Part shown: positions 21,445-39,386 of the stretch, piece by piece
How the letters are laid out: every line of letters begins with the position of its first letter
Position numbering within the stretch: the stretch's first letter is position 1
DNA from: Burkholderiaceae bacterium
GTDB taxonomy: Bacteria; Pseudomonadota; Gammaproteobacteria; Burkholderiales; Burkholderiaceae_C
Direction of reading: 5' to 3'
DNA: 39,634 nucleotides
Assembly: GCA_031253955.1 (NCBI GenBank)
Contig: JAIRVJ010000100.1
Coordinates: 1-39,634 of the forward strand
The notes under the pieces: model-generated
The model's database searches: none
Seen by the model: the letters and a program-made list of their open reading frames with translations, nothing else
Told to the model about the DNA's origin: nothing
Translations under genes and position numbers: made by a program

Positions 21445-21523
21445 CTGGGCTCCTGTGGATATTGGTGGGGCAACCATGAGTTGCGTTGCCATTTCAGCAG
21501 AAAGAAAGGCAGATAGGCCATAA

Positions 21524-21561: not shown

Positions 21562-21590
21562 AAATTATCGGGAAGTTGAAGGAAGTTTCT

Positions 21591-22379
21591 ATGCCTGATG
21601 CCCCTCCCGAACCCACCTCGACGCCTTCGCCTCTGGCCGGCATCGAGCGCAGCGGTCATGTGGCGCTGGTCGAGATGCGCCGTCCGCCGCACAACTTTTT
21701 CGACGTGGCGCTGCTGGCTGCGCTGGCCGACGCTTTTGAGACGCTGGAGCGCGAGGACGGCTGCCGCGCGGTGGTGCTGGCGGCGCAGGGCAGATCTTTT
21801 TGCGCCGGGGCCGATTTTTCCGGGGGCCGGCGCAACGACCGGGGCGCGCTGTACGCGCAGGCGGCGCGGCTGTTTGCCATGCGCAAGCCGGTGGTGGCCG
21901 CCGTGCATGGCCCGGCCATCGGCGGCGGGCTGGGGCTGGCGCTGGCGGCGGACTTTCGCGTGACCTGCCCCCAGGCGCGCTTCAGCGCCAACTTCACGCG
22001 GCTGGGCTTTCATCCCGGTTTCGGGTTGACCCATACGCTGCCGCGACTGATCGGCGTGCAGCAGGCGGCGCGGCTGTTTTATACCGGGCAGCGCATTGAC
22101 GGCGCACGGGCGCACGCCATCGGGCTGGCCGATGAACTGGCCGAAAGCCCGGAGCAGACGCGCGAGCGGGCGCTGGCGCTGGCCGCTGAGATCGCCGCCT
22201 CGGCGCCCATCGCGGTCGAATCGGTGCGCGCCACGCTGCGCGCCGGGCTGCTCCAGCAGGTCCAAGCGGCCATCGCGCACGAAAGCGCGCAGCAGCAATT
22301 GCATTTCGAGACCGCCGATTGCCGCGAAGGGCTGGCTGCCGCCGCCCAACGGCGCGAGCCGGTTTTCACACGCTGCTAA
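21591..22379 (+). CDS. Enoyl-CoA hydratase/isomerase family protein lacking both catalytic glutamates
   Basis: This is a 262-residue crotonase-fold protein. The oxyanion-hole segments are present: RSFCAGADFSGG and AIGGGLGLALAADFRV, then LGFHPGFGLTHTLPRLIG and a C-terminal helical region. In classical enoyl-CoA hydratase one glutamate follows GGG (GGGCE) and another lies three residues before the LG of the next helix; here these positions are Gly115 and Phe135. Plain hydratase activity is therefore doubtful; isomerase, thioesterase, lyase or another crotonase chemistry is possible. ATG 21591 has an AAGGAAG ribosome site. The acyl-CoA dehydrogenase gene follows after 14 bases. Confidence 0.88.
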   Translation: MPDAPPEPTSTPSPLAGIERSGHVALVEMRRPPHNFFDVALLAALADAFETLEREDGCRAVVLAAQGRSFCAGADFSGGRRNDRGALYAQAARLFAMRKPVVAAVHGPAIGGGLGLALAADFRVTCPQARFSANFTRLGFHPGFGLTHTLPRLIGVQQAARLFYTGQRIDGARAHAIGLADELAESPEQTRERALALAAEIAASAPIAVESVRATLRAGLLQQVQAAIAHESAQQQLHFETADCREGLAAAAQRREPVFTRC

Positions 22380-22393
22380 AGGGAGGAGCGCCA

Positions 22394-23491: not shown

Positions 23492-23519
23492 GATGAAACC
23501 GAATTGGAGCGAATCACTC

Positions 23520-23638
23520 CTTCCCCCGCGTGCGGGGGAAGGTTGGGATGGGGGCGATGGCGCATCGAAAAAGCCAAGCGTTTATGCGAATGCCGCACCC
23601 CCCACCCCAACCCTCCCCCGCAAGCGGGGGAGGGAGCA
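23520..23638. repeat. Paired GC-rich hairpin repeat inside an operon
   Basis: Two hairpins in inverted orientation lie between the two acyl-CoA dehydrogenase genes: TTCCCCCGC/GCGGGGGAA near 23521-23540 and CCCTCCCCCGC/GCGGGGGAGGG near 23611-23634. The flanks GGTTGGGATGGGGG and CCCCCCACCCCAACC are also inverted. In mRNA such a structure could protect or separate the upstream and downstream messages and so set the ratio of the two subunits. Confidence 0.8.
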
Positions 23639-23660
23639 AAGATAACTGAGGACATTGCTC

Positions 23661-24851
23661 ATGGACTATTCGATCAGCGCCCAAGACGCGCAACGCCTGC
23701 ACGCCCTGCGCGTCATTGGGCGCGAGGAAATCCGCCCCGCCGGTCTGCGCGCCGACCGTGCGGGCGAGCCGCTGCCGGTGGGCGATGCTTTCTTCACGCG
23801 GATGTTGGCCGCAGGCTTTGGCCGCACCCGCTGGCGTCCCGAAGGGCAGGCCGGGAGCCATCCAGTCATCGCGCCCAACAAGGGATCGACCGCAGTCGCG
23901 CAAGTGCTGCTGGCCGAAGAAGGGGCGTATTGGGATCGCGGCATCGGCGTGGCGATGCCCGGCCCCGGTTTGGGCGAGCCGCCGATTTTGTCGATGGGCA
24001 CGCCGGAGCAGAAAGCGCGCTTTCTGGGGCCGTTCGTCAATCCGGCCCAGCCGATCTGGGGCGCGTTCGCGATGACCGAGCCTTCGGGCGGATCGGACGT
24101 GGCCAACATCAAAACGCGCGCGCGGCGCGAGGGCGACGTGTGGATTCTGGATGGCGCCAAGTCGTTTTCCGGCAACTCCGGGCGCGCCGAGTGGATCGTG
24201 GTGTTTGCCACCGTCGATCCGGCGCTGGGGCGCGCGGGCCACCGCGCCTTCGCCGTCGAGCGCGGCACACCGGGCCTGGGCGGCTTTCGCATCGAAAAGA
24301 AGATGGGGCTGAAGGCTTACGAATCGACCTCGTTTTTCCTCACCGGCTGCCGCGTGCCCGCTGCCAACCTGCTTGGCGGCGAAGCGTATTACGCGCAGCG
24401 CGCGGGCTTCAAGGGGGCGATGGACACCTTCAACGCGGGCCGCCCGGCCATTGCGGGCATGGCCGTCGGCATTGGCCGCGCGGCGCTGGACGAGGCGGCC
24501 CGGTTCATGCAAGAAGACGGCCTGTGGGCCGACGCCCGCCTGCGCGACCGCTGGGAGCGGTGCCGCCGCAAGCTCAAGGCGGCCCTGCTGCTGGCGCTGC
24601 GCGCGGCCTGGCTGGCCGACCGCAAACAGCCCAACATGGTCGAGGCTTCGGCTTCCAAGGCGATGGCCGCGCCCGCCGCCTTCGAGGCCACGAGCTTGGC
24701 GATGGAGGCGCTCGGCCTGGCGGGCGGGCGGGGCGATCACCAGATCGAAAAACTGTTCCGCGACGTGAAGGCGATGGATATCGTCGAAGGCACCGGCCAG
24801 ATTCAGCGCATCGTCATGGCGCGCAAGCTGGTCGGGCTGCCGCATGGATGA
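23661..24851 (+). CDS. Acyl-CoA dehydrogenase family subunit with catalytic glutamate
   Basis: A 396-residue acyl-CoA dehydrogenase homologue. The middle domain has GAFAMTEPSGGSDVANIKTRA (flavin-binding TEPxxGSD) and GAKSFSGNSGRAEWIVVFA, and the C-terminus has DIVEGTGQIQRIVMARKLVG with the catalytic glutamate (Glu376) of medium/short-chain type enzymes. What is missing is the RxxFGxPIxxxQ motif: after NAGRPAIAGMAVGIGRAALDEA comes DARLRDRWERCRRKLKAALLLALRAAWL. That motif is present in the preceding gene. Complementary losses suggest a heteromeric dehydrogenase. ATG 23661 has GAGGA upstream; a TTG two codons earlier is less likely. Confidence 0.9.
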   Translation: MDYSISAQDAQRLHALRVIGREEIRPAGLRADRAGEPLPVGDAFFTRMLAAGFGRTRWRPEGQAGSHPVIAPNKGSTAVAQVLLAEEGAYWDRGIGVAMPGPGLGEPPILSMGTPEQKARFLGPFVNPAQPIWGAFAMTEPSGGSDVANIKTRARREGDVWILDGAKSFSGNSGRAEWIVVFATVDPALGRAGHRAFAVERGTPGLGGFRIEKKMGLKAYESTSFFLTGCRVPAANLLGGEAYYAQRAGFKGAMDTFNAGRPAIAGMAVGIGRAALDEAARFMQEDGLWADARLRDRWERCRRKLKAALLLALRAAWLADRKQPNMVEASASKAMAAPAAFEATSLAMEALGLAGGRGDHQIEKLFRDVKAMDIVEGTGQIQRIVMARKLVGLPHG

Positions 24852-24904
24852 AGAAGTTGTGCGCTGTGCGTTTGGCGTTGAGTGTGAAACGTTTGATTTT
24901 CTAT

Positions 24905-24998
24905 CAATTTAATAGCTTTTTACCAATACATTGTATGATTTATACATATAAAAAATATATAAAATCATATAATATACATGATATTAGCTATTAATTTT
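24905..24998. repeat. AATAGCT-type intergenic repeat, copy 5
   Basis: It begins CAATTTAATAGCTTTTTACC, continues AATACATTGTATGATTTATA and ends GATATTAGCTATTAATTTTAG. The 210-base gap it fills between the dehydrogenase and CoA-transferase genes contains no gene. It is very AT-rich (many TATA and ATAT steps) in a GC-rich background and could hold a promoter for the CoA-transferase gene. Confidence 0.7.
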
Positions 24999-25062
24999 AG
25001 AGCAACAGAAATTTTTTCGCTTCTGCAAACGCCACACGCTCAGCACACAACGCCACACTGAA

Positions 25063-26286
25063 ATGACCACCGCCTCTTCTCCCGCTTCCCCCGCCGCGGC
25101 CACCGGCCCGCTCAAGGGCATCCGCGTGCTCGATCTGACCGCCGTCGTGCTGGGGCCTATCGCCACCCAGATACTGGCCGACTTCGGCGCCGATGTCATC
25201 AAGGTCGAGCCCCCGGCGGGCGACATGATGCGCGCCAACGGCATCTCGCTGCATCCGGGCATGAGTTCGATCTTTCTGGCCGTCAACCGCAACAAGCGTT
25301 CGGTGTGCATCGATCTGAAATCGCCCGCGGGCCGCGCCGCACTGGACGCGCTGATTCCCACCGTGGATGTGCTGGTGCACAACATGCGCATTCCCGCCGC
25401 CGGGCGTCTGGGCCTGGGCTACGAGCGGGTCGCGCGCTTGCGCCCGGACATCGTGTACTGCGCGGCGCTGGGCTTCGGGCAAGACGGCCCGCACCGCGAC
25501 AAACCGGCATTCGACGACATCATTCAGGCCGGCTGCGGGCTGACCGGTTTGAGCGCCATCGGCCAGGCGCAGCCGGACTACGTGCCCAGCCTGATCGCCG
25601 ACAAGACCGCCGGAATGGCGGTGAGCAACGCCATCATGGCCGCGCTGCTGCACCGCGCGGCAACCGGGCAGGGCCAGTACGTCGAAGTGCCGATGCTGGA
25701 AACCATGGCCGCCTTCGTCATGGCCGAGCACATGGGGGGGCTGACGTTTCGCGGATCGGGCATCAAGGCGGGCTACCCGCGCCTGCTCGAAGGCGGGCGC
25801 AAGCCCGCGCGCACCAGGGACGGCTGGATCGCCATGCTGCCCTATACCGGCAAGCACTGGCACGCCTTCTTCGAGGCCGTGGGCCGCAAGGATTTGAGCG
25901 CGCGCTACGACATCGAAGACCGCCACCAGCGCAACGCGCGCATCCGCGAGCTGTATGCGCATCTGCGCGAATTGGCGACCGAAAAAACCACCGCGCAATG
26001 GATGGCTTTGTGTGAGCAGCTGGACATTCCGGCCACGCCCATCTACATGCCCGACGATCTGCCCGCGCACCCGCACCTGCAAGCGGTCGGCCTGTTTCAA
26101 GACGCCGAACACCCGACCGAAGGCCCGATCCGGCAGGTGCGCCCGGCCACGCGCTTTTCGGCCACCCCCGCTAACGTGTACCGACAGGCACCCGCCGTGG
26201 GGCAGCACACCGAGGAGGTATTGCGCGAGGCGGGTTTGGGCACCGATGAAATTGCGCGCTTGAAACAGCAGCGGGCGATTGTTTGA
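25063..26286 (+). CDS. CaiB/BaiF family (class III) CoA-transferase, no. 1
   Basis: A 407-residue class III CoA-transferase moving CoA between acyl-CoA and free acid through an aspartyl-CoA intermediate. Family features are GIRVLDLTAVVLGPIATQIL with the following DFGADVIKVEPPAGDMMR, AVNRNKRSVCIDLKSPAGR, VLVHNMRIPAAGRLGLGYE, and the catalytic aspartate in KPAFDDIIQAGCG (Asp151). RASG-like elements and the C-terminal GxxP region (PRQ... HTEEVLREAGLG) are present. It probably activates the acid taken up by a Bug receptor, using a CoA ester from the pathway as donor. The IclR gene overlaps its stop. Confidence 0.92.
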   Translation: MTTASSPASPAAATGPLKGIRVLDLTAVVLGPIATQILADFGADVIKVEPPAGDMMRANGISLHPGMSSIFLAVNRNKRSVCIDLKSPAGRAALDALIPTVDVLVHNMRIPAAGRLGLGYERVARLRPDIVYCAALGFGQDGPHRDKPAFDDIIQAGCGLTGLSAIGQAQPDYVPSLIADKTAGMAVSNAIMAALLHRAATGQGQYVEVPMLETMAAFVMAEHMGGLTFRGSGIKAGYPRLLEGGRKPARTRDGWIAMLPYTGKHWHAFFEAVGRKDLSARYDIEDRHQRNARIRELYAHLRELATEKTTAQWMALCEQLDIPATPIYMPDDLPAHPHLQAVGLFQDAEHPTEGPIRQVRPATRFSATPANVYRQAPAVGQHTEEVLREAGLGTDEIARLKQQRAIV

Positions 26287-27116
26287 TCGCCGCGCCCGCC
26301 GCCGCACCAGGCCAGGACGGGCAAAATCCGCCCCTTGCTTCAAGAAAATCCAGCGCGGTGGAACCATCGGTCATCAAAACGGCGGGGCGGGTATTCGAGG
26401 TGCTTGAATACATGGGCGAGGTGCGCCGGCCCGTGACGGTGCGCGAAATTTCCGAGCGCCTGGGCTATCCGCTGTCCAGCGCCCAGGCGCTGCTCAAGAG
26501 CATCGCCACGCTGGGCTATCTGCGCTACGACTCCCTGCTGCGCGCCTACCTGGCCACGCCCCGGCTGGCCTCGCTAGGCGAATGGGTGGTCGATTCGATG
26601 TTCGCCGGCGGCCAGTTGTTCGGGGCGCTGGAGGACATCGCGCGCAAGACGGGCTTCAAGGCCATCCTCGCGGTCGAAAACGGCATTTACGCGCACTATG
26701 TGCGCGTGATCGTCGGCAACCGACCCATGGTCTTCAACGTCCAGCCCGGTACGCGGCGGCTGCTGTGCATGTCGGGGCTGGGCTGGGCGCTGCTGGCGGC
26801 CAGCAGCGACGAGCACGTGGCGCGCATCATTCATCGCACCAACCTGCGGCTGGGAGACGGCGGCCAGGCCGTAGCTCCCGATTACGTGAAAGCCCAGGTG
26901 CGCGAAACCCGCGAGCGCGGCTACGCCTTCTCGCGCGCCGTCGTCACCGAGGGCATCGGCATCGTCGCGGTCAGCGCGGCAGCTTCCCACGCGCCCGATA
27001 CGCGGCTGGCCATCGGCGCAGGCGGCCCGGTGGCCGAACTGGAAGCCACACTCGACGCCGTCCTGCGCGTCCTGCGCGAACACGCGGCGGCAGCCGGCCC
27101 GGTGACCAGACGGTGA
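26283..27116 (+). CDS. IclR family transcriptional regulator
   Basis: A 277-residue regulator of the IclR type. The N-terminal winged helix (about 30-95) has VIKTAGRVFEVLEYMGEVRRPVTVREISERLGYPLSSAQALLKSI, and the C-terminal effector domain (about 110-265) has GFKAILAVENGIYAHYVRVI, LLCMSGLGWALL and ERGYAFSRAVVTEGIGIVAVS. IclR proteins commonly control catabolism of aromatic or other organic acids next to their own genes, so it may sense the substrate of this island. The start is uncertain: TTG 26283 overlaps the CoA-transferase stop (coupling) while GTG 26358 would remove a non-conserved N-terminus; no clear ribosome site marks either. Confidence 0.9.
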   Translation: MIAAPAAAPGQDGQNPPLASRKSSAVEPSVIKTAGRVFEVLEYMGEVRRPVTVREISERLGYPLSSAQALLKSIATLGYLRYDSLLRAYLATPRLASLGEWVVDSMFAGGQLFGALEDIARKTGFKAILAVENGIYAHYVRVIVGNRPMVFNVQPGTRRLLCMSGLGWALLAASSDEHVARIIHRTNLRLGDGGQAVAPDYVKAQVRETRERGYAFSRAVVTEGIGIVAVSAAASHAPDTRLAIGAGGPVAELEATLDAVLRVLREHAAAAGPVTRR

Positions 27117-27366: not shown

Positions 27367-27445
27367 GAGTTTTTGTGTATTTATATAGTTGACTCTGTAA
27401 TAAATTAGACATAGATTATACGTCATGCTCAACCAGGAGATCGTC

Positions 27446-27787
27446 ATGGCCTACAGTGAGAACTTCAAACAGCGCGTACTGGCCTATATTGCTGGAGGCG
27501 CCAACAAGGTTGAGGCGGCCAAGTGTTCAACCAGTGGCTGGAGCACATGCTACTGCCGCAACGGGCCAGCGGTAGCACCATGGTGCTGGACACCCGCCAG
27601 CTTTCACAAGGCAGAGTACACGCGCCGCCTGGTGGAGCACGCTGGCTGTCAACTGCTGTACTTGACGCCCTACAGTCCTGATCTCAACCCAATTGAAAAG
27701 CTCTGGGCCAATCTCAAGCGCCGCTGGCGCAAAGTTGGCGGCGCGCTGGAGGAGATGATCGTAACGTCCGATTATTTTGGGGATTGA
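27446..27787 (+). pseudogene. IS630-family transposase remnant
   Basis: Pieces of an IS630 transposase survive. The N-terminus AYSENFKQRVLAYIAGGANKVEAA (helix-turn-helix start, after CAGGAG and ATG 27446) is followed directly by a FNQWLEHMLLPQRASGSTMV piece in the +2 frame (from about 27526). The DDE end then returns in the first frame: SFHKAEYTRRLVEHAGCQLL, then YLTPYSPDLNPIEKLWANLKRRWRK. About two thirds of the transposase centre is deleted, including two of the three catalytic acids, and frameshifts lie at both joints. Possible inverted ends are near 27395 (AATAAATTAGACAT) and 27766 (GTCCGATTATTTT). It cannot move by itself. Confidence 0.82.
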
Positions 27788-27964: not shown

Positions 27965-29182
27965 TTAGATCACGGCCCGCGCCCGCAGCTCTTCCAGGCG
28001 CTCTTGGCTCAACCCAAGTTCCGCCGCCAGCACTTGGGCGCTGTGTTCGCCGAGCATGGGCGGGGGGCGGTGTTCGACGGGGGTGGCCGAGAAGCGCAGG
28101 GGGCTGCGCAGGCTGGGAACGTTCACGCCGCGGCTGTGCGGCAGGTTGACCACCAGGTCGCGGTGGCGTATTTGTTCGTCCTGAAAAACGTCGGCCATGT
28201 CGTTGATGGGGCCGCAGGGCACACCCGCGCTTTCAAAAGTCGCCACCAATTCAGCGCGGGTGTGGCCAGCCAGCGCTGGGGCGAGTATTTCGCGCAGCGC
28301 GGCGCGGTGGGCGATGCGCAGTGTGTTGGTGCGAAAGCGTTCGTCCCGCGTCCATTCCGGGTGCCCCAGGGTTTCGCATATGGCCTTGAACTGGCCGTCG
28401 TTGCCCGCCGCCACAATGATGGAGCCGTCGGCGCAGTCCAGCACTTCGGAAGGGGAAGCCACCGGGTTGGTGTTGCCTGCACGTGGGGGTATCTTGCCGG
28501 TGATGAGGTAGCCGAGCGCGACATGGCCGTTGAGGGCCACGGATGAATCGAGCAGGGACGCATCCAGATACTGACCCTGGCCGGTCTTTTGCCGGTGGTA
28601 AAGCGCGCCGACGATGCCGACGGCGGCATACAGGCCGGTTACCACATCGGTGATGGGAATGGCGGTGCGCATGGGGCCGGCGCCGGGCGCGCCTTCGGGA
28701 TGGCCGCAGGTGCTCATCAGACCGGCCATTCCTTGCAGGATGAAATCGTAGGCCGGGCGGGTGGCATAGGGGCCGGTTTGACCAAAGCCGGTGATCGAGC
28801 AGTAGATGATGTCCGGGCGGCGGCGGCGGATGCTGGTTTCGTCCAGGCCGTATTTGGCCAGCGAGCCGACCTTGTAGTTTTCCACCAGTACATCGCAGCG
28901 CGCGGCCAGATCCTGCACCAGCGCGGCGCCTTCGGGCGTGGCGATGTCGATGGTGACCGATTGCTTGCCCCGGTTGTAGGCCAGGTAGGTGGCCGATTCG
29001 GCGCCGTGCGCGTCGTGCGGATCGGACAGAAAGGGTCCCATGCGCCGGGTGTCGTCGCCCTCGCCGGGCTTTTCGATCTTGTAAACCGTGGCGCCCATGT
29101 CGGCCAGGGTCTGCGTGCACGCAGGCCCGGCGACGATTCTGGAGAGATCCAGAACCTTGATGCCTTCGAGAATTGCGGTCAT
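27965..29182 (-). CDS. CaiB/BaiF family (class III) CoA-transferase, no. 2
   Basis: A 405-residue class III CoA-transferase, last gene of the minus-strand arm. It has GIKVLDLSRIVAGPACTQTLADMGATVYKIE, the LAYNRGKQSVTIDIATPEG segment, VLVENYKVGSLAKYGLD, and the catalytic aspartate in RPAYDFILQGMAG (Asp146). It is only distantly similar to the first CoA-transferase (25063), with differences through the central region, so the two probably use different acids or donors. ATG 29182 is preferred because GGAG lies 8 bases upstream; GTG 29191 overlaps the Bug stop. It replaces functionally the acyl-CoA synthetase AtuH of the Pseudomonas pathway (inference). Confidence 0.92.
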   Translation of the reverse strand: MTAILEGIKVLDLSRIVAGPACTQTLADMGATVYKIEKPGEGDDTRRMGPFLSDPHDAHGAESATYLAYNRGKQSVTIDIATPEGAALVQDLAARCDVLVENYKVGSLAKYGLDETSIRRRRPDIIYCSITGFGQTGPYATRPAYDFILQGMAGLMSTCGHPEGAPGAGPMRTAIPITDVVTGLYAAVGIVGALYHRQKTGQGQYLDASLLDSSVALNGHVALGYLITGKIPPRAGNTNPVASPSEVLDCADGSIIVAAGNDGQFKAICETLGHPEWTRDERFRTNTLRIAHRAALREILAPALAGHTRAELVATFESAGVPCGPINDMADVFQDEQIRHRDLVVNLPHSRGVNVPSLRSPLRFSATPVEHRPPPMLGEHSAQVLAAELGLSQERLEELRARAVI

Positions 29183-29187
29183 GTCAC

Positions 29188-30174
29188 TCACTCCAAATGA
29201 ATGTTGGCTTTTTTGATCACGCCAGCCCAGCGGGCGGACTCGCTGCGCATGAAGGCGTCGAACTGCTCGGGCGTGCCGCCCACGGGGTCGATGCCGAACT
29301 CGATCAGCTTGCCGTGAATTTCCGGCGCTTGCAGCGCCTTGCGGACTTCGGCGGAAAGCCTGTCCACGATCGCCTTGGGCGTTTGGGCCGGCGCGAGCAG
29401 GCCGATCCAGCTGCCGCCGGTCATGCCGGGGTAACCCAGCTCGGCCATGGTCGGCACTTCGGGCGCGGCGGGCCAGTGCTGGCCGCTGGTCATGGCCAGG
29501 GCGCGCAGCTTGCCGGCTTTGACCTGCGGCATCATGGTCTGCACGGAATCGAAGACGATGGCGATGCGGCCCGAAAACAGATCGGGCAGCGCCGGCGCGA
29601 TGCCTTTGTAAGGAATGTGCGACATCTTCAAACCCGCCGTCTGCGCGAACAATTCGCCCGCCAGATGCGCGCCGGAGCCGGCGCCGCTGGAAGCAAAGGT
29701 CGCCTGATCGGGATTGGCCTTGGCCCAGGCCACGAACTCATGAAGGCTGACCGGCGGCAAGGCCGCGCTGGAAACCATCAGCAGCGGGATGGCGCCGAAT
29801 TCGCTCACGCCGCGCAGGTCTTGCAGCGGGGAGTAGGCCATTTTCGGATACAGGCTCGGATTGATGACGTGGGCCGCCACGACCACCAGCAGCGTGTAGC
29901 CATCCGGTGCCGCGTGCGCCACGAAAGCCGAGCCAATTTGCCCGTTGGCGCCGCCCATGTTGTCGATGATGACCGGTGTCTTCAATTGTTCGCCGAGCTT
30001 GCTGGCGATCAGCCGCGTGACCGTGTCGGACACTCCGCCGGGCGTGTAGGGCACCACGACATGGATCGGCCTGTTCGGGTAGGTATCTTCGGCGCAGGCC
30101 GTGCCCGCGCCGCCAGCCAGCGCGGCGGCGGCCAGGGCGGCGGCCAGGAACTTGCGGCGACAGTTGAAAATCAT
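29188..30174 (-). CDS. Bug/TctC-family tripartite tricarboxylate receptor, no. 2
   Basis: A 328-residue periplasmic binding protein of the Bug family. The signal peptide CRRKFLAAALAAAALAGGAGTACA contains a good twin-arginine RRKFL motif; cleavage is expected near CAE-DTYP. Family segments include YPNRPIHVVVPYTPGGVSDTVTRLIA, IIDNMGGANGQIGSAFVAHAAPDGYTLL, YSPLQDLRGVSEF and APEVPTMAELGYPG. It is located between atuA (34 bases upstream) and the CoA-transferase (5 bases downstream), so it should be expressed with the degradation enzymes. AAGGAGA precedes the ATG. Only the receptor is encoded here, and no TctA or TctB permease gene is visible. Confidence 0.93.
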   Translation of the reverse strand: MIFNCRRKFLAAALAAAALAGGAGTACAEDTYPNRPIHVVVPYTPGGVSDTVTRLIASKLGEQLKTPVIIDNMGGANGQIGSAFVAHAAPDGYTLLVVVAAHVINPSLYPKMAYSPLQDLRGVSEFGAIPLLMVSSAALPPVSLHEFVAWAKANPDQATFASSGAGSGAHLAGELFAQTAGLKMSHIPYKGIAPALPDLFSGRIAIVFDSVQTMMPQVKAGKLRALAMTSGQHWPAAPEVPTMAELGYPGMTGGSWIGLLAPAQTPKAIVDRLSAEVRKALQAPEIHGKLIEFGIDPVGGTPEQFDAFMRSESARWAGVIKKANIHLE

Positions 30175-30208
30175 GGAAGTCTCCTTGGGTTGGTTGAAAC
30201 GAAAAATT

Positions 30209-32014
30209 TCAGGCCGCGCCTGGCTCCAGCAGGCCGCTTGCGAGCCAGCTCCGGGGGACGCGCACCGGGCAGTCGAGCAGCATCTGCGCGAAGGACTTGC
30301 CCAGCGGGTCCGAGCGCAGGCTGGCCACCCCGCCGCCGCCGAGCGCGCGGTGCAGAACGAAGTTCAGCGCGCCCAGGCCCGGCAGGTCATAACGCTCGAC
30401 CTCACCTTGCACCAGATGCGCAAAATATGCGCGCACCCGTGCGGCATCGAGCTGCACGCGCAGCAGCGGCAGAAATTCGGGCCGGCGGGCAATGACGCCG
30501 ATGTTTTCGTCGTCGCCCTTGTCGCCGCTGCGCGCCCAGGCAAGCGCGACCAGCGGCACGGGTACGGCATCGCCGCCTGGTTGCATGTCAGGCGGCATGG
30601 CGGGCAGTTCGGCGGCGGCGGTGACCGGCCCCGCTGCGGGAGGCGCGACCGGCTCGGCCATATCGCCAAGCGCCACTTGCAGCGCCACCTGATCCTTGGG
30701 CACCAGAAACGAGAACACCTTGATGACCGGCTGCACATCCGCGCGGCCCGAAAACGTCGAGCGCGTGCCCGGCCCCATCGACGTGCCGGCGGATGCGCAT
30801 TCGCGCTGCAAGAAGGCCAGCGCCTTGGGGTCGGCATGGCGGGCGGCGATGCGCAGCACCACTTCGCGCGTGGGCAGGGGGCGGGCGTGGGCGCCGTACA
30901 GCGCTTCGCAGCCGAGCAGTTCGACGCAGGTTTCGCTGTAGCCGGCCATGCCGCGCTGGCGCATCTGGGCGCGCGTGCGCTCAAGCAGCGCATCGGCGGT
31001 TTTGCGCGCTTTGGCGGGCGCGTCGATGCCGCGAATGGCCATCATGATCTGCAACTGGTAGCCGTCGCGCCATGTGCCGTTGGCCTTGTAGCTGCCGGTG
31101 GGCGGGCGTCCGCGCGCGCCTTGAATGCGCACCGCGTCCGGCCCTTGTGCCCGCACGCGCACCTGCCGGAAGTCGCAAGTGACGTCGGGCATCAGGTAAT
31201 TGGCCGGGTCGCCGATTTCGTAGAGCACCTGCTCGGCCACCGCGCCCGGATGGATCAGTCCGCCGGTGCCTTTCGGCTTGGAGAGCGTAAAAGCGCCGTC
31301 TTCTTCGCAGTCGATCACCGGGTAGCCCATGTTCGCCCAATCGGGCACCTGTTGCCAGTCGGTGAACAGGCCGCCGGTGGCTTGTGCCCCGCACTCGATC
31401 ACGTGGCCCGCGAGCGTGCCGGCGGCCAGGCGCTCCCAGTCGTCCCAGCGCCAGCCGAATTCATGCGCCAGCGCGCCCACCACCACGGCGCTGTCCACAC
31501 AACGGCCCGTGATGACGATTTGCGCGCCCAGCGCGAGCGCCTGCGCGATGCCGCGCGCGCCGACGTAGGCGTTGGCCGAAACCAACTGCGCCGGAGGCGG
31601 TTCGCCCGTGTGCAGGTCGCGCAGCCCTTGCGCGCGCAGGCGCTCGAACTGCGGCATCACGTCATCGCCCGTGACCACCGCGATGCGCGGCGCCAGGCCC
31701 TGCTGCGCGGCCACGGCGGCCAGCGCGTCGCGGCAGGCGTGCGGGTTCAGGCCGCCGGCGTTGGCAATCACGCGCACGCCCTTGGCGCAGATCGCCGCCA
31801 GGTGCGGGGCCATCGCGGCGTGCACGAAATCGGTGGCGTAGCCCAGCGCCGGGTCCTTGGCGCGGGCGCGCGCCAGAATCGACATGGTGGTTTCGGCCAG
31901 ATAGTCGTAAACCAGATAGTGCAGGCCCGGCACTTCGAGCAGTTGCGGCGTGGCGATGGCCGAATCGCCCCAAAAGCCGCTGGCGCCGCCGATACGCACG
32001 GCTTTCCTGTTCAT
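30209..32014 (-). CDS. atuA: Acyclic terpene utilization family protein AtuA
   Basis: A 601-residue protein with the AtuA domain (PF07287, former DUF1446) in residues about 5-450 and a C-terminal AtuA-like ferredoxin-fold domain (about 490-595). Typical segments are RIGGASGFWGDS at the N-terminus, IANAGGLNPHACRDAL, TGRCVDSAVVVGALAHEFGW, YEIGDPANYLMPDVTCDF and, in the C-terminal domain, ALAWARSGDKGDDENIGVIARRPE. AtuA is required for citronellol/geraniol growth in Pseudomonas but its reaction is unproven. ATG 32014 has GGAG upstream. The 200 bases between it and the carboxylase gene hold a degenerate AATAGCT-like repeat (about 32081-32110) and no gene. Confidence 0.92.
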   Translation of the reverse strand: MNRKAVRIGGASGFWGDSAIATPQLLEVPGLHYLVYDYLAETTMSILARARAKDPALGYATDFVHAAMAPHLAAICAKGVRVIANAGGLNPHACRDALAAVAAQQGLAPRIAVVTGDDVMPQFERLRAQGLRDLHTGEPPPAQLVSANAYVGARGIAQALALGAQIVITGRCVDSAVVVGALAHEFGWRWDDWERLAAGTLAGHVIECGAQATGGLFTDWQQVPDWANMGYPVIDCEEDGAFTLSKPKGTGGLIHPGAVAEQVLYEIGDPANYLMPDVTCDFRQVRVRAQGPDAVRIQGARGRPPTGSYKANGTWRDGYQLQIMMAIRGIDAPAKARKTADALLERTRAQMRQRGMAGYSETCVELLGCEALYGAHARPLPTREVVLRIAARHADPKALAFLQRECASAGTSMGPGTRSTFSGRADVQPVIKVFSFLVPKDQVALQVALGDMAEPVAPPAAGPVTAAAELPAMPPDMQPGGDAVPVPLVALAWARSGDKGDDENIGVIARRPEFLPLLRVQLDAARVRAYFAHLVQGEVERYDLPGLGALNFVLHRALGGGGVASLRSDPLGKSFAQMLLDCPVRVPRSWLASGLLEPGAA

Positions 32015-32215
32015 GTCAGTGGCTCCAGGACCTGCCGCGCAACGCGCGGTGCATGCCACGGCCCAGCCCCTTCTTCGCTATGATTTGCATAGCTGTATGC
32101 CATTGCCATGCCTACGATATAGGCCGATTTGCATTCAGATTCTTGCCGGCTGGACGGGCCTTGCGCGGTGCAGGGTAAAAAGAAAGTGCGCCTGTTCATC
32201 TGGGGGTGTTCCCTC

Positions 32216-34234
32216 TCAAGCTTCGATGCGCAACAGCAGTGCGCCTTTGGCGGCCTGGCCGCCGGATGACACACACACTTCGGCTACCGTGCCCGCCACG
32301 GGCGCGGCCAGCAGGTGTTCCATCTTCATGGCTTCAAGAACCACGAGGCGCTGGCCGGCTTGCACGGTTTCGCCCTGGCGCACCGCGACTTCCACGATGC
32401 GCCCTGTCAGCGGGGCCGTGATCGCGCCGCTTGCGCTTTCGGCCATGCGGCTCTTGCGCCTGCTCACGCGCTCCAGGCTCCAGGCGCGGCCGGCGTGGAA
32501 AAAATGGAGCGCATCGGCCTGCGCCGCGAGCGTCAGGCTTTCGGCGATGCCGTCGCATTCGACGCTGAAGGCGGCGCGGTCCGCGCCGTGCCACCGGGCA
32601 TCGCGCAGCGTGAAGGTCTGGCTGGCGTGCTCGCCGCCGGCACCGGCGCAGCGCACGCTCACCTGCCATGCCCCGTCCTGGGCCAGCAGTTGCGCATCCC
32701 AACGGCACGCGCCTTGCGCCAGTTCGAGCCGCGCGGCTTGCCGGCCCAAGGTGGGGGCGCCAATCGAAAGCTCGCCGTGGCGGCCCGGCACTTCGGCGGC
32801 CAGCGCGCCGAAGGCAGCCAGCGCCACGGCGCCAAGCGCGGGCGCCGCCTGCTCCGCAAGGCGCGCGCCAAAGCGTTCCTGCACGAAGCCGGTATGAACG
32901 GCCTGGCCTTGCGCGAATACGGCGTCGCTCAGGCAGTCGGCCAGAAAACCCTGATTGGTCGGCAGGCCCAGCAGCACGCAGTGCTCCAACGCGCGCAGCA
33001 ATTTGCGGCGCGCCTGGTCGCGCGTGGGGCCGTGCGCGACGAGCTTGGCAATCATCGAATCGTAGTGGGGCGACACCGCGCCGCCTTCATGCAAACCGTG
33101 ATCGACGCGCACGTCATGCTCAGGGCCGGGCGGGCGCCAGCGCAACACCGGGCCGGTTTGCGGCAAAAAACCGCCGGGCACGTCTTCGGCGGTCAGCCGC
33201 ACTTCAATCGCGTGGCCGTTCAGGCGCACCTCGGACTGCGGCAGCGCGAGCGGCTCACCGGCGGCCACGCGCAACTGCCACTCGACCAGATCGAGTCCGG
33301 TGACGGCCTCGGTTATGGCATGTTCGACTTGCAGGCGCGTGTTCATTTCCATGAAATAAAAACGCCCTTCGCGGTCGAGCAGAAATTCCATCGTGCCCGC
33401 GCCGGTATAGCCGATGGCCAGGGCGCTCTTGACGGCGGCTTCGCCCATGCGCGCGCGCAAGGCAGCATCGACCGCGGGGGAGGGCGCTTCTTCAATCACC
33501 TTCTGGTGGCGGCGCTGCACCGAGCAATCGCGCTCGCCCAGATGGATGGCGTGCCCGTGGCTGTCGGCCAGCACCTGGATTTCGACATGGCGCGGCGCGA
33601 TCACGGCGCGCTCCAGAATCAGCTCGCCGTGGCCGAAGGCAGCTTCGGCCTCTGAACGTGCGGAAGCCAGCGCCTGCGGCAGAGCGCCGCCGTCGTGCAC
33701 CAGCCGCATCCCGCGTCCGCCGCCGCCGGCGGCGGCCTTGACCATGACCGGAAAACCGATTTCCGCCGCCGCGCGCATGAAAGCCGCCTCGCTCTGGTCT
33801 TCGCCTTGATAGCCGGGAATGCACGGCATACCGGCGGCCAGCATCAGCCGCTTGGCCTGCGCCTTGTTGCCCATGGCGCGGATCGCTTCAGCCGAAGGGC
33901 CGATAAAAACCAGCCCGGCGGCATCGACGGCTTGCGCGAAGTCCGCGTTCTCGGCCAGGAAGCCATAGCCGGGGTGCACCGCATCGGCGCCCGCGCGGCG
34001 GGCCGCGTCGAGAATGGCCTGGATGTTCAGGTACGAGTCGCGCGGCGCCGCGCCGCCGATCAGCACGGCGCGGTCGGCGGCCCACACGTGCGGGCTGGCG
34101 CGGTCGGCTTCGGAATAAACGGCCACCGCGCCATAGCCCATGCGGCGCACGGTGCGGAAGATGCGAAGGGCGATCTCGCCGCGATTGGCGACGAGCACGG
34201 TGTGAAAGGGGCGGATTTGCTGGCGGATCGTCAT
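32216..34234 (-). CDS. Biotin carboxylase/BCCP alpha subunit of an acyl-CoA carboxylase (AtuF/LiuD-like)
   Basis: A 672-residue alpha subunit that carboxylates biotin with ATP and bicarbonate. The biotin carboxylase part has VLVANRGEIALRIFRTVRRMG, the ATP-grasp loop KAAAGGGGRGMRLV, HIQVLAD-type EIQVLADSHGHAIHLGERDCS, and EMNTRLQVEHAITE. A BT-type linker domain follows, and the biotinyl domain ends VLEAMKMEHLLAAPVAG with biotinyl Lys637. Gene order next to a carboxyltransferase, dehydrogenase, hydratase and atuA indicates a methylcrotonyl-CoA or geranyl-CoA carboxylase; I favour the latter. The hydratase gene ends 21 bases upstream. Confidence 0.93.
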   Translation of the reverse strand: MTIRQQIRPFHTVLVANRGEIALRIFRTVRRMGYGAVAVYSEADRASPHVWAADRAVLIGGAAPRDSYLNIQAILDAARRAGADAVHPGYGFLAENADFAQAVDAAGLVFIGPSAEAIRAMGNKAQAKRLMLAAGMPCIPGYQGEDQSEAAFMRAAAEIGFPVMVKAAAGGGGRGMRLVHDGGALPQALASARSEAEAAFGHGELILERAVIAPRHVEIQVLADSHGHAIHLGERDCSVQRRHQKVIEEAPSPAVDAALRARMGEAAVKSALAIGYTGAGTMEFLLDREGRFYFMEMNTRLQVEHAITEAVTGLDLVEWQLRVAAGEPLALPQSEVRLNGHAIEVRLTAEDVPGGFLPQTGPVLRWRPPGPEHDVRVDHGLHEGGAVSPHYDSMIAKLVAHGPTRDQARRKLLRALEHCVLLGLPTNQGFLADCLSDAVFAQGQAVHTGFVQERFGARLAEQAAPALGAVALAAFGALAAEVPGRHGELSIGAPTLGRQAARLELAQGACRWDAQLLAQDGAWQVSVRCAGAGGEHASQTFTLRDARWHGADRAAFSVECDGIAESLTLAAQADALHFFHAGRAWSLERVSRRKSRMAESASGAITAPLTGRIVEVAVRQGETVQAGQRLVVLEAMKMEHLLAAPVAGTVAEVCVSSGGQAAKGALLLRIEA

Positions 34235-34255
34235 CGGCGTTTTTCTTGGAAGCGT

Positions 34256-35107
34256 TTAGGGCGCAACCGGCACGGCCTGAGCCGCGCGGATTTCGCCGGC
34301 GCTGAACTGGCAGCGCCAGGCGGCGGCGCGCTTTTCCCGGAAGGCGGCGATGCCTTCGGCGCCTTCGCCGCGCATACAGGCCGCAAATTGCCGCGCCGCA
34401 TCGTCGAGCAGGGCGGCATCGGCCTCATGCCCGCAGCGCCGCAGCAGGGCTTTGAGCGCGCGGTTGGCGCGCGGGCCGCAGGCGCCGATGCGGGAAAGCC
34501 AGTGCGCGAGCAGTTCGTCCAGCGCCGTGCTGTCGGCGGCCAGTTCGTCCACCAGGCCCAGGCGCAAGGCGGCCTCGCCGCTCACGCGCTCGCCACTCAG
34601 TCCCATGCGGCGCGCCACGCGCTGACCCACCCGCGCCACCACGAAGGGCGCGATCTGCGCCGGGATGATGCCCAGCGAGGTTTCGCTCAGAGCGAATTGG
34701 GCGTCTTGCGTGGCCAGCACGATGTCGGCGGCGCAGGCCAGACCCATGCCGCCGCCCATCGCCGCGCCCTCGACGGCGGCCACCACCGGCACTGGCAGCG
34801 CCGCCAGTTGCTGCATGAAATGGCCGAATTCGCGGTTGCGCGCGGCCACCGGATCGCTGCCCTCCACGGCGTGGGCGTCCAGCCGCGATTGAAAGCTGCC
34901 GACATTGCCGCCCGCGCAGAAAAAACCGCCCGCGCCGCGCAGCACCAGCGCGCGGCAATCCAGATCCGCTTCGGCCAGCGCCAGCGCGCCGGCCAGCGCG
35001 TTCACCACTTCGGGAGCCAGCGCGTTGCGCGTGGCCGGCCGGTTGAGCGTGACAAACAGAACACCGCGCTGTCGCACGGCGAGAACGGAGGCGGCGGCAG
35101 CGGGCAT
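34256..35107 (-). CDS. Enoyl-CoA hydratase/isomerase family protein (AtuE/LiuC-like)
   Basis: A 283-residue crotonase-fold protein. CAGGNVGSF and AMGGGMGLACAADIVLA form the oxyanion hole, and SETSLGIIPAQIAPFVVARVG carries the catalytic glutamate (Glu142). The position after GGG is not glutamate, as in LiuC/AtuE-type glutaconyl-CoA hydratases, whose LGxxPAxIxPFV motif it shares. In the Atu pathway this enzyme hydrates isohexenyl-glutaconyl-CoA after carboxylation. ATG 35107 has GAAAGG upstream. It lies directly before the alpha carboxylase gene, as atuE precedes atuF. Confidence 0.92.
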   Translation of the reverse strand: MPAAAASVLAVRQRGVLFVTLNRPATRNALAPEVVNALAGALALAEADLDCRALVLRGAGGFFCAGGNVGSFQSRLDAHAVEGSDPVAARNREFGHFMQQLAALPVPVVAAVEGAAMGGGMGLACAADIVLATQDAQFALSETSLGIIPAQIAPFVVARVGQRVARRMGLSGERVSGEAALRLGLVDELAADSTALDELLAHWLSRIGACGPRANRALKALLRRCGHEADAALLDDAARQFAACMRGEGAEGIAAFREKRAAAWRCQFSAGEIRAAQAVPVAP

Positions 35108-35197
35108 TACGGGCCTTTCATTTGTGTTGGGTGCTCAAGGCTGTTCATGGCGCTCATGCGGGGAACGAAAATTTCTTTACCCTACGGTAAGCTATTA

Positions 35198-35287
35198 AAT
35201 TCATAGCTTATTACCAATGAAAAACATGTATTTTTGAATTTTTTATATAGTAAATGCATATTATGCATTGGCAACGAGCTATCATTT
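35198..35287. repeat. AATAGCT-type intergenic repeat, copy 7
   Basis: It begins AAATTCATAGCTTATTACC, continues AATGAAAAACATGTATTTTT and ends ACGAGCTATCATTTTT. It includes a perfect 17-base palindrome AATGCATATTATGCATT (35253-35269). It separates the Bug no. 3 gene from the hydratase gene on the minus strand, in a 220-base gap without a gene. Confidence 0.7.
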
Positions 35288-35326
35288 TTCAGGTTACCGC
35301 CTTCTTGAGAAACACAACACCCCGCT

Positions 35327-36328
35327 CTAGGATTGCGGCTGCACGCTCAGGCCCAGCTGCTTGAGAAGCTCGCCTTGAGATTTGTAACGCTGGCGCGCGA
35401 AGCGGTCGTAGCTGGCGCTGTCGAGGTAGGCGGCTTCCATATCCAGTTGTTCCAGCAGCTTGACGGTGGCCGGTTCGGTCAGCGCCTGCTTGAAGGCATC
35501 GTGCAGCGTCTTGACCACCTGCGGGTCCATGCCCTTGGGGCCAGCGATGCCGAAGGGGGAGGTGGAAACGATGTCCAGCCCCACCTCGCGCAGCGTCGGC
35601 ACGTCGGGCCAGCGTTTGGAGCGGGCGGCGTTCCACAGCACCAGCAGGCGCACCCTGCCGGAATCGACGAAGCTGCCGACGGTGCCCGCGGAGCAGCCCA
35701 CGTCGATGTGGCCGCCCATCAGCGCCGACATGATTTCGCCCTCGCCCTTGAAGGGCACGTGCACCCATTCGATGCCCAGCTTCTGGGCGATCTCTTCCAT
35801 CGTCAGGTGCATCGTGCCATTGGTGCCGGTGGTGCCGTAAGTAATTTTGCCGGGGTGGTTTTTGGTGTCGGTCACCAGGTCGGACCATTGCTTCCACGGC
35901 GCGTCGGCGCGCACGGCCACGCCGAAGGTATAGCCGGTCAGGTGGATGATGTAGGTGAAGTCCTTGAGCGGATCGAAACTCGTCTTTTGCAGGTACGGCA
36001 GGCGCAGCGCTGGCTCGTTGATGAGCGTGATCGCGTAGCCGGTGGCCGGCGCGCGCACGATTGCGTTGGCGCCCATGGTGCCCGCGGCGCCGGGTTTGTT
36101 GTCGATCACCACGGGCTGGCCCAGCGTTTTGCTGGCCGAGGCGGCCAGCGCGCGCATCAGGGTGTCGGTGGTGCCGCCGGCCGGGAAAGGCACGTACAAA
36201 GTGATGGGCTGACCCGGAAAGACGGGTTGGGCGCGCGCCAGGGGAGCATGGACGCCGGCATACGAGGCGGCCAGGCTGGCGGCAGTCAGCGCCAGCAGGC
36301 GGCGGCGGTTCAGATGGGGGTTGGTCAT
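35327..36328 (-). CDS. Bug/TctC-family tripartite tricarboxylate receptor, no. 3
   Basis: A 333-residue Bug-family periplasmic receptor. The signal peptide NRRRLLALTAASLAASYAGV ... ARA-Q carries an RRRLL twin-arginine-like motif. Family segments are PGQPITLYVPFPAGGTTDTLMRALA, VIDNKPGAAGTMGANAIVRAPATGY, FDPLKDFTYIIHLTGY and RWPDVPTLREVGLD. It has no close resemblance to the other two receptors in the window beyond the family signature. It lies within the carboxylase operon between the dehydrogenase (36 bases upstream) and the hydratase. AAGGAG precedes its ATG. Confidence 0.93.
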   Translation of the reverse strand: MTNPHLNRRRLLALTAASLAASYAGVHAPLARAQPVFPGQPITLYVPFPAGGTTDTLMRALAASASKTLGQPVVIDNKPGAAGTMGANAIVRAPATGYAITLINEPALRLPYLQKTSFDPLKDFTYIIHLTGYTFGVAVRADAPWKQWSDLVTDTKNHPGKITYGTTGTNGTMHLTMEEIAQKLGIEWVHVPFKGEGEIMSALMGGHIDVGCSAGTVGSFVDSGRVRLLVLWNAARSKRWPDVPTLREVGLDIVSTSPFGIAGPKGMDPQVVKTLHDAFKQALTEPATVKLLEQLDMEAAYLDSASYDRFARQRYKSQGELLKQLGLSVQPQS

Positions 36329-36364
36329 GGTTGATCTCCTTGAAGGTTTCTCTGGGGTTGGTGT

Positions 36365-37528
<1,164 letters not shown>

Positions 37529-37567
37529 GGCGGTCTCCTGTTTTCTGGTGTCGGGGCGGCCGGCGGG

Positions 37568-39187
37568 TCAAAAACGCGCGACGCCGAATTGCACGGGGCG
37601 CGGCTGGCGCCGTTCGGTCTCGCGCGCGGTGGCCAGCACGAAGGCTAGCACGGCGCGCGTTTCGCGCGGGTCAATCACGCCGTCGTCGAGCAAATGGCCG
37701 CTGGTGTAAAAGGCGCTGGCCTGGCGCTCGAAGTTGGCGATGATCTCATGCTTTTGCGCGGCCAGTCTGGCTTCGTCCACCGGATCGCCTTTACGACCGG
37801 CCTGTTGCCGGGCGACGATTTCCATGGTGGCGGCGGCCTGCTCGCCGCCCATCACGGCGGTGCGCGCGTTCGGCCACGAGAAGCAAAAGCGCGGATGAAA
37901 AGCGCGCCCGCACATGCCGTAGTTGCCCGCGCCAAACGATGCGCCGCAATGAATCGTCACCTGCGGCACGCGCGAATTGGAAAGCGCCTGAATCATCTTG
38001 CTGCCGTGCTTGATCATCCCTGCTTCCTCGGAAGCGCGGCCCACGATGAAGCCGGTGGTGTTTTGCAGATAGACGATGGGCGTGCCCGACTGGTTGCACA
38101 ACTGGATGAACTGCGCCGCCTTGGCCGCGCCGGACGGGTCGATCGGCCCATTGTTGGTGACGAAGCCGGCTATGTGACTTTCGATGCGGCCGTGGCCGCA
38201 GACCGTGGCGCTGCCGTAGTCGGGCTTGAAGTCCATCCAGCGCGAGTCGTCCACCAGGCGCGCGATCACCTCGCGCATGTCCATGGGTTTGCGGTGTTCG
38301 AGCACCATCACGCCCGCCAGTTCTTCCGGGTCCAGGCGCGGGTTCTGAAATGCCGCCGCCGCGCCATCATCGCCGCGCGGCCAGTCGAGGTGGGTCATGA
38401 TGTCGCGCGCGATGGCGATGGCGTGCGCGTCGTCCTCGGCCACGTATTCGGCCAGGCCGCTGATGCCGGCGTGCATGTCGGCGCCGCCCAGTTCTTCGTC
38501 GGTGGCAATCTCGCCGGTGGCGGCCTTGAGCAACGGCGGCCCGGCCAGGAACGCCTTGGCGCGGCCGCGCACCATGATGACGTAGTCGGACAGACCCGGC
38601 ATATAAGCGCCGCCGGCGGTCGAGGAACCATGCACCACCGTGACCACCGGCAGCCCCGCCGCCGAAAGGCGCGCGAGGTTGTAGAACATGCCGCCGCCGT
38701 TGACGAACTTTTCGACCCGGTACTTGCGCAGGTTGGCGCCCGCCGATTCGACCAGGTGAACAAAGGGCAGCCTGTTTTCCAGCGCGATCTCCTGGCAGCG
38801 CCTGACCTTCTGGTTGCCAGATTCGGTAAGCGCACCGGCATCGATGCCCGAATCGGTGGCCACCACCATGCAGCGCGCCCCGCTGACAAAGCCGATGCCG
38901 GCAATCTGCGCGCCGCCCGGAACGCAGGTTTGCAAGTCGGGGTGATCCATGCCGTAGCCGGCCAGATTGGCGATTGGCAAAAAAGGCCGCCCCGGATCGA
39001 GCAGCCGGCTCACGCGCTCGCGCGGCAGCAGCGCCCCGCGCCTGGCAAAACTGGCCGCCGCCCGCACCGACGCATCGGCGGCGCGGCGCTCCAGGGCGCG
39101 CAGTTCCTCAACAAGCGCCAGCATCCCCGCGCGCTGGCTCTGGAAAGCTTCGGACGCCGGATGAATGTGGGTCTGAAACGCAATCAT
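37568..39187 (-). CDS. Acyl-CoA carboxylase carboxyltransferase beta subunit (AtuC/LiuB-like)
   Basis: A 539-residue carboxyltransferase that moves CO2 from biotin to the gamma-carbon of a branched 2-enoyl-CoA. N- and C-terminal crotonase-type halves are visible: LVESAGANLRKY, HGSSTAGGAYMPGLSDYVIM (188-204), FLAGPPLLKAATGE, then IVYLQNTTGFIVGRASEEAGMI, HCGASFGAGNYGMCG and FSWPNARTAVMGGEQAA. Where methylcrotonyl-CoA carboxylases have FGRIFYNQ this has GGGMFYNL (164-171); loss of that phenylalanine is reported for geranyl-CoA carboxylase (recollection). First gene of the minus-strand arm, with a palindrome 30 bases upstream. No strong ribosome site is visible. Confidence 0.93.
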   Translation of the reverse strand: MIAFQTHIHPASEAFQSQRAGMLALVEELRALERRAADASVRAAASFARRGALLPRERVSRLLDPGRPFLPIANLAGYGMDHPDLQTCVPGGAQIAGIGFVSGARCMVVATDSGIDAGALTESGNQKVRRCQEIALENRLPFVHLVESAGANLRKYRVEKFVNGGGMFYNLARLSAAGLPVVTVVHGSSTAGGAYMPGLSDYVIMVRGRAKAFLAGPPLLKAATGEIATDEELGGADMHAGISGLAEYVAEDDAHAIAIARDIMTHLDWPRGDDGAAAAFQNPRLDPEELAGVMVLEHRKPMDMREVIARLVDDSRWMDFKPDYGSATVCGHGRIESHIAGFVTNNGPIDPSGAAKAAQFIQLCNQSGTPIVYLQNTTGFIVGRASEEAGMIKHGSKMIQALSNSRVPQVTIHCGASFGAGNYGMCGRAFHPRFCFSWPNARTAVMGGEQAAATMEIVARQQAGRKGDPVDEARLAAQKHEIIANFERQASAFYTSGHLLDDGVIDPRETRAVLAFVLATARETERRQPRPVQFGVARF

Positions 39188-39284: not shown

Positions 39285-39386
39285 CTCCTGATTCAATAGC
39301 TCATTGCAAAATACGGCACATCTTTGTACATATAGAAGCCACTCAAATAAATTAAATAACTAGAAAATAAGCTATTGAATCAGGAG
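39285..39386. repeat. AATAGCT-type repeat with perfect 17-bp ends, copy 8
   Basis: CTCCTGATTCAATAGCT (39285-39301) and AGCTATTGAATCAGGAG (39370-39386) are exact inverted copies, enclosing a 68-base AT-rich centre. This is the best-preserved copy and shows the full-length ends of the family. It lies just after the stop codon of the tonB-like gene on the minus strand and could terminate it. Confidence 0.88.

Follow-up and report, generated by a model that had tools for sequence, protein, structure and literature searches.

Which acid would a bacterium degrade with a gene set that resembles the Pseudomonas operon for acyclic terpenes, and that also includes periplasmic receptors and a coenzyme A (CoA)-transferase? 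This question is raised by an eight-gene run on the minus strand of contig JAIRVJ010000100.1 (positions 27,965 to 39,187) from a Burkholderiaceae bacterium (GCA_031253955.1). The window that we analyzed is this entire contig of 39,634 nucleotides, part of a 2.6-Mb assembly of 167 contigs that is 97% complete. We conclude that the run is a new variant of the branched-acid pathway that combines a geranyl-CoA carboxylase (GCC) with the lyase AtuA. We consider it somewhat better than an even bet (probability of roughly 0.55) that it is a catabolic pathway for an external beta-methyl-branched carboxylic acid, probably with a second carboxylate. Enzyme changes shared by operons of this type suggest a more highly charged branched acid than in the terpene operon.

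Profile searches found all domains named for the eight genes in a sequence-only reading of the window, confirming their identities. Read on the minus strand, these are a carboxyltransferase (beta subunit), an acyl-CoA dehydrogenase, a Bug/TctC receptor (A), an enoyl-CoA hydratase, a biotin carboxylase with biotin carboxyl carrier protein (BCCP; together the alpha subunit), AtuA, a second Bug/TctC receptor (B), and a class III (CaiB/BaiF) CoA-transferase. The atuC-D-E-F order claimed for the run is also present, with one Bug gene sitting between D and E. As had been said of atuB, atuG, and atuH, neither a short-chain dehydrogenase (SDR; atuB/atuG type) nor an acyl-CoA synthetase (atuH type) was found within the run.

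The carboxylase class was decided by pocket residues and by phylogeny. According to the accessible part of PMC4673880, the beta subunit has Phe in methylcrotonyl-CoA carboxylase (MCC) and Gly in GCC, and MCC carries a 3-residue insertion before this site. The window beta subunit (37,568 to 39,187; Carboxyl_trans, 389 bits) has Gly (G164) at the MCC Phe191 site and no insertion, and its predicted model includes the long N-terminal helix (residues 13 to 41) that is a further mark of GCC. Its nearest solved relative is the Pseudomonas aeruginosa GCC beta subunit (PaGCC; 5ikl), at 592 bits and 52% identity, compared with 468 bits for MCC. In a 98-row tree, the window sequence grouped with 5ikl in a clade of 65 rows (support, 100), and the MCCs stood apart (13 rows; support, 99). 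The insertion is absent from all 65 GCC-clade rows and Gly is present in 62 (not in L097, L098, or L100), whereas all 13 MCC rows have both Phe and the insertion. For the alpha subunit (32,216 to 34,234; EAMKM biotin site), 12 rows of the operon type were separated by one branch from 7 Liu-type rows, although they did not form a single clade among all 88 rows. Trees of both subunits, which the sequence-only reading had proposed as a check, placed neither among the MCCs, and the outcome that this reading had named as refuting did not appear. Pocket residues and both trees rule out an MCC, or leucine pathway, identity and support a GCC-type enzyme that would presumably carboxylate its substrate. 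The carboxylase family is often misannotated, as stated in the accessible part of PMC4673880, and at the strict cutoff that we applied, matches occurred in 170 of the 399 genomes sampled from this bacterial family.

The AtuA-family protein (30,209 to 32,014) matched PF07287 at 473.9 bits, above the gathering cutoff, and its C terminus matched AtuA_ferredoxin (PF23544) at 100.8 bits. We took the ATG at 32,014 as its start, and the open frame (30,209 to 32,059) extends to a GTG at 32,059. The fold of its predicted model matches that of citramalate lyase subunit A, CmlA (9erq and 9evf), in a VIA-align 2 structural alignment; domains and alignment together support a genuine member of the AtuA family. 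CmlA, itself of this family and crystallized with ADP, is 16% identical to the window protein over this alignment. Its solved chain of 456 residues covers only residues 2 to 452 of the 601-residue model, so CmlA seems to lack the ferredoxin-like domain; its substrate is a free acid, not a CoA ester.

The dehydrogenase (36,365 to 37,528) and the hydratase (34,256 to 35,107) were recognized by domain matches, the latter scoring 163 bits against the AtuE equivalog model NF004227 (cutoff, 426). In the dehydrogenase, Glu246 lines up with a Glu located in a helix of the human long-chain acyl-CoA dehydrogenase, a position that we take to be the catalytic base, as in isovaleryl- and long-chain enzymes; a second PDB sequence of the human enzyme has Gln there. 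Both receptors matched PF03401 above the gathering cutoff (244 and 257 bits). Receptor A (35,327 to 36,328) has an uncharacterized protein as its nearest solved relative, and its relatives within the runs of G001, G360, and G337 are 56 to 65% identical. Receptor B (29,188 to 30,174), which adjoins AtuA, best matches a solved terephthalate-binding protein (232 bits). The CoA-transferase (27,965 to 29,191; PF02515, 413.7 bits, above the gathering cutoff) is closest among solved proteins to an unspecified CaiB/BaiF protein (337 bits) and then to succinate--hydroxymethylglutarate CoA-transferase (310 bits), the nearest with a specific name. It is not an equivalog of the nearest NCBIfam family, succinate--glutarate CoA-transferase (NF052585), because it scores 422.9 bits against a cutoff of 750.

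The gene set is not a chance assembly, because the proposed search of other genomes for the same gene order recovered it at 16 loci, including the window (G000). The others are G001 (divided between two contigs), G023, G028, G360, G337, G415, G045, G364, G423, G296 (Diaphorobacter caeni, L096), L090 (Polaromonas sp. AER18D-145), L069 (Alcaligenaceae CGII-64), G189, G652, and G727. A Bug gene lies within the run at all 16 loci and is a constant partner of the operon type. A class III CoA-transferase gene lies downstream on the same strand at 14; the idea that it is invariant was corrected, since none occurs in the sequence read around G727, which covers ∼15 kb on the downstream side and 9 kb on the upstream side. 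The earlier proposal of import followed by CoA transfer therefore gains support from the recurrence of both partners; a terpenoid label does not follow. When eight of the operons were known, they formed one clade in the AtuA tree (support, 100/99) and one side of a branch in the beta tree (support, 68).

The loci vary around this core. An opposite-strand gene (a LysR gene in L096) separates Bug from the CoA-transferase in L090, L096, G045, G364, and G423. In L069, the start of the carboxyltransferase gene is overlapped by an ADP-forming acyl-CoA synthetase gene; upstream, genes for a CoA-transferase and for Bug point in the opposite direction. An IclR gene is directly upstream in five relatives (G028, G360, G337, G415, and L069), whose IclR proteins are 37 to 63% alike. 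An SDR plus a second dehydrogenase, both absent from the window run, are encoded in the runs of G001, G360, and G337. Because these three relatives have an SDR, its absence from the window looks like a loss; the closest copy in the window genome is only 36% identical, and no remnant of an SDR or second dehydrogenase was found in the 219-bp gap between receptor A and the hydratase. The gene after the CoA-transferase in G337 (L209, 294 to 1,568) encodes a class I acetyl-CoA hydrolase/transferase that might recover acetate released by AtuA.

Linkage of receptor and transferase extends to a table of 61 GCC-type loci (window excluded), whose rows are not independent. A Bug gene was present at 6, and a CoA-transferase gene accompanied it at 6/6, versus 3/55 loci without Bug (Fisher P = 1.5e-6). 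Restricting the table to the 37 loci flanked by 6 kb or more on each side gave counts of 3/3 and 1/34. Thirteen of the 61 loci (L072, L073, L076, L077, L079, L084, L101, L103, L114, L115, L118, L119, and L133) have a beta-keto acid cleavage enzyme (BKACE) gene within 10 kb; no AtuA gene was found within 10 kb of these, some with short flanks, which suggests another way of finishing the pathway. Six genus-mate stretches (L047, L048, L049, L051, L053, and L054) hold a carboxylase-free cluster of class III CoA-transferases, Bug receptors, and AtuA, with a hydratase adjoining AtuA in 5/6; this cluster could serve acids that already bear the extra carboxylate.

What distinguishes the enzymes of this operon type is a set of basic residues. 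Comparing 13 operon-type beta subunits with 68 others of the GCC type, we sought residues kept in at least 90% of the former and at most 15% of the latter. Five of 539 positions qualified (six under a looser cut). Four lie at positions 154 to 169 around G164 (the window protein has R154, K160, G164, and Y169 in the region of the acyl pocket), and the chance of four in five falling within 10 residues of G164 is 8e-6. Position 154 is Arg in 12 and Lys in 1 of the 13, and position 160 is Lys in 7 and Arg in 6; neither is basic in any of the 68 others. When 25 of the 26 loci from the order-wide sample described below were added, and actinobacterial rows and 10 of the 13 MCC rows were left out, the resulting 109 rows had the basic pair in 16, all of the operon type, versus 0 of 93 others; one other row had one of the two residues. 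In the predicted model, K160, G164, and Y169 share one helix (158 to 176), with K160 one turn before G164. A quick tree of the 109 rows without the pocket columns required one change for the pair (support, 22), whereas a careful tree of 52 of these rows required two (one change in 9% of bootstraps).

Similar residues occur in the other acyl-handling enzymes. Dehydrogenase position 241 (K241 in the window) is Lys or Arg in 12/12 operon-type sequences and 1/38 elsewhere, and R253 with R254 occurs in 12/12 versus 0/38; all three positions are within 8 residues of Glu246. Hydratase R75 is found in 10/11 versus 0/26, and R257 in 11/11 (once as Lys) versus 2/26. AtuA R343 and R433 are present in 10/10 versus 0/24, in a set without L041, L043, and L210 (length limits or duplicates). 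Biotin carboxylase does not see the acyl group; it has two type-specific positions, neither basic, and with just two it is a weak control. Across the four acyl-handling enzymes, 9/34 type-specific positions are basic, versus 9/88 in other, non-overlapping clades of the same trees (P = 0.04); with AtuA left out, a split chosen after seeing the data, the counts are 7/15 and 7/71 (P = 0.002). Acidic residues were not enriched (2/34 versus 8/88). The type-specific basic residues near the acyl pocket make citronellate or geranate less likely as the substrate and favor an acid with more charge.

We then related the basic pair to gene neighborhood in 399 genomes sampled across the order, where 26 GCC-type loci besides that of the window passed an E value of 1e-180. 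Some of these genomes had been met in earlier searches, but their neighborhoods were first read after sampling. The pair occurred at 3/26 loci, a count made before all 26 neighborhoods were retrieved. By the second of two criteria, a same-strand Bug gene following AtuA, 3/3 loci with the pair and 0/23 without it were positive (Fisher P = 0.0004); several of these 23 neighborhoods are short, and at 3/23 a Bug gene lies on the opposite strand no more than 10 kb away. Reading farther downstream revealed a CoA-transferase at G189 and none at G727.

Based on these observations, the pathway may proceed as follows. A Bug receptor would capture the acid, and the class III CoA-transferase would load CoA onto it, with succinyl-CoA as the likely donor. 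The dehydrogenase, judging from its family, would yield a 3-methyl-2-enoyl-CoA, the gamma methyl carbon of which would be carboxylated by the GCC-type biotin enzyme, with R154 and K160 beside the pocket pairing with a distal carboxylate. After hydration to a 3-hydroxy-3-substituted glutaryl-CoA, AtuA, by analogy with related lyases, would split the product into acetate and a 3-oxoacyl-CoA for thiolysis. A second carboxylate is proposed because receptor B and the CoA-transferase have diacid-linked relatives and because basic residues lie beside the acyl pocket. It is possible, although we regard it as doubtful, that the operon encodes a previously unreported pathway for dicarboxylic acids with a beta-methyl branch, for example those formed as water-soluble end products when isoprenoids undergo omega-oxidation, with all four acyl-handling enzymes jointly retuned by Arg and Lys. 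As an example, 3-methyladipate would be imported through Bug, receive CoA from succinyl-CoA, and undergo dehydrogenation, gamma-carboxylation, and hydration; AtuA cleavage would give acetate and 3-oxoadipyl-CoA, and thiolysis would return the succinyl-CoA donor. This closed cycle is chemistry on paper, and no study of bacterial 3-methyladipate degradation was evident among the literature matches listed.

Several observations weigh against an imported, highly charged substrate activated by CoA transfer. The terephthalate-binding and hydroxymethylglutarate relatives are family-level hints of diacids, and Bug receptors and class III CoA-transferases also serve monocarboxylates. The analysis establishes the gene set, the protein classes, the conserved linkage to Bug, the type-specific residues, and the AtuA fold; all reactions are inferred, as are the substrate and the direction in which CoA moves, and contact of R154 and K160 with the acyl group is likewise suggested by sequence distance and secondary structure, with R154 in a loop of lower model confidence preceding the helix. 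Basic residues are only modestly enriched relative to the control clades, the compared rows share ancestry, and one control clade (L133 and kin) has 2/23 basic positions in beta and 2/9 in the dehydrogenase. The first criterion in the order-wide sample required a Bug gene as well as a CoA-transferase gene within 10 kb, and by it the difference was not significant (1/3 versus 1/23; P = 0.22). One genome, G006 (L223), is an exception to the association, having Bug (∼2.4 kb) and class III CoA-transferase genes upstream of a beta subunit without the basic pair. Acyl-CoA synthetases are no rarer near a CoA-transferase in the 61-locus table (3/9 versus 15/52). An AMP-binding ligase gene lies upstream of the operon in G028, and G727 has both an ADP-forming synthetase convergent to the run and an AMP-binding match upstream on its strand.

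The lack of atuH from the run had been taken to indicate an acid activated by CoA transfer. It is weak evidence, because the P. aeruginosa synthetase FadD4, which activates terpenoic acids, is encoded outside the cluster (accessible part of PMC8637051); our negative result for synthetases covers the run. An ordinary acyclic terpene pathway would explain the pocket Gly, the AtuA family, the C-D-E-F order, and the closeness to PaGCC beta: citronellate or geranate would be taken up, receive CoA through the CoA-transferase, and be broken down by GCC and AtuA as in Pseudomonas, with the basic residues serving otherwise. We consider this unlikely, given the placement of two basic residues next to a pocket that in GCC is described as largely hydrophobic (accessible part of PMC4673880), the separation of the operon type from 5ikl in the beta tree, and the separation of its AtuA from that of L107 and L031, loci with an AtuA-C-D-E-F order. 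Furthermore, the end product of the Atu pathway, 3-methylcrotonyl-CoA, is handed on to the Liu pathway (accessible part of PMC4847356), and a terpenoid pathway therefore needs MCC. Checks of carboxyltransferase and alpha-subunit matches found no MCC in the window genome, which is evidence rather than proof because the assembly is incomplete. The four carboxyltransferase-domain matches are that of the window, a long one that groups with the propionyl-CoA carboxylase (PCC)-type rows of its genus, and two short ones taken for AccA and AccD. The only other fused alpha subunit, C84, is a long branch inside the Liu clade; it was rejected as an MCC on account of its PCC BT domain (PF18140). The best match to the LiuA of a genus-mate is 57% identical.

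This missing MCC, together with a 3-hydroxy-3-methylglutaryl-CoA lyase gene on contig C124 of the same genome, could instead point to a replacement leucine or isovalerate route in a strain that lost MCC. Such a role is highly improbable, since both subunits lie outside the MCC clades and the pocket residue is Gly, not Phe. In addition, G028 has the operon as well as a Phe-type beta subunit, G023 has it as well as a Liu-like cluster whose alpha subunit, LiuD, carries the MCC-type BT domain PF21139, and GCC is very weak on methylcrotonyl-CoA (accessible part of PMC4673880). Finally, the CoA-transferase could shift CoA between carboxylates of one intermediate, as ThnP does, with a cyclic substrate or one made inside the cell. 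The thn operon for anaerobic naphthalene degradation pairs a CoA-transferase with acyl-CoA dehydrogenases, hydratases, and the AtuA-like ThnQ/ThnS, a lyase acting at a tertiary hydroxyl, and some class III enzymes transfer CoA within one molecule (accessible parts of PMC12016498 and PMC11659651). However, ThnP belongs to class I, the thn systems are those of anaerobic sulfate reducers, and the accessible portion of the thn gene list names no biotin carboxylase or other carboxylase. ADP-forming synthetases beside the run in L069 and G727 fit activation of a free acid, and a Bug gene at every locus points to import, which makes intramolecular transfer quite unlikely. Uptake and activation of an external branched acid remains our preferred interpretation.

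Relative to Pseudomonas atuABCDEFGH, the window shares GCC-type subunits, dehydrogenase, hydratase, AtuA, and the C-D-E-F order but lacks atuB, atuG, atuH, and atuR and has AtuA downstream. Its additions are the Bug receptors, the class III CoA-transferase, and the type-specific basic residues, and five relatives add the upstream IclR. Compared with PaGCC beta, the window subunit, in a separate clade, has R154 and K160 in place of Asn and Ile and GGEQ in place of GGAQ. By title or abstract opening, no atu-type operon with Bug or a class III CoA-transferase appeared among the literature matches listed, a search whose coverage left out most subscription journals.

Regulation and transcription of the window run are less clear. 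The 219-bp gap and another of 201 bp between BCCP and AtuA make a single transcript uncertain. The 0.4 kb that the window contains upstream of the run holds no IclR gene, and the IclR gene at 26,283 to 27,116 was rejected as its regulator: it is not an orthologue of the relatives' gene, with 22 to 29% identity to four of them and no match to the fifth. An inverted repeat upstream (39,285 to 39,386) has 16-base exact arms ∼70 bases apart and an AT-rich spacer, and related 11-mers occur at 35,190 and 24,907. Beside the operon is a second acyl-CoA cluster (20,479 to 27,116), in which a minus-strand Bug receptor is followed on the plus strand by a hydratase, two acyl-CoA dehydrogenases, a class III CoA-transferase, and the IclR regulator; none of L041, L042, and L069 showed a close copy of it next to the operon. 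A DDE_3 transposase fragment (27,425 to 27,787) lies between this cluster and the operon.

If our interpretation is correct, the terpene chemistry of GCC and AtuA would be a single case within a broader enzymatic repertoire that removes methyl branches, and the window version would work on charged acids scavenged from the surroundings. Positions 154 and 160 could become sequence markers of substrate class, and the tie between AtuA and the solved fold of citramalate lyase subunit A makes its mechanism testable.

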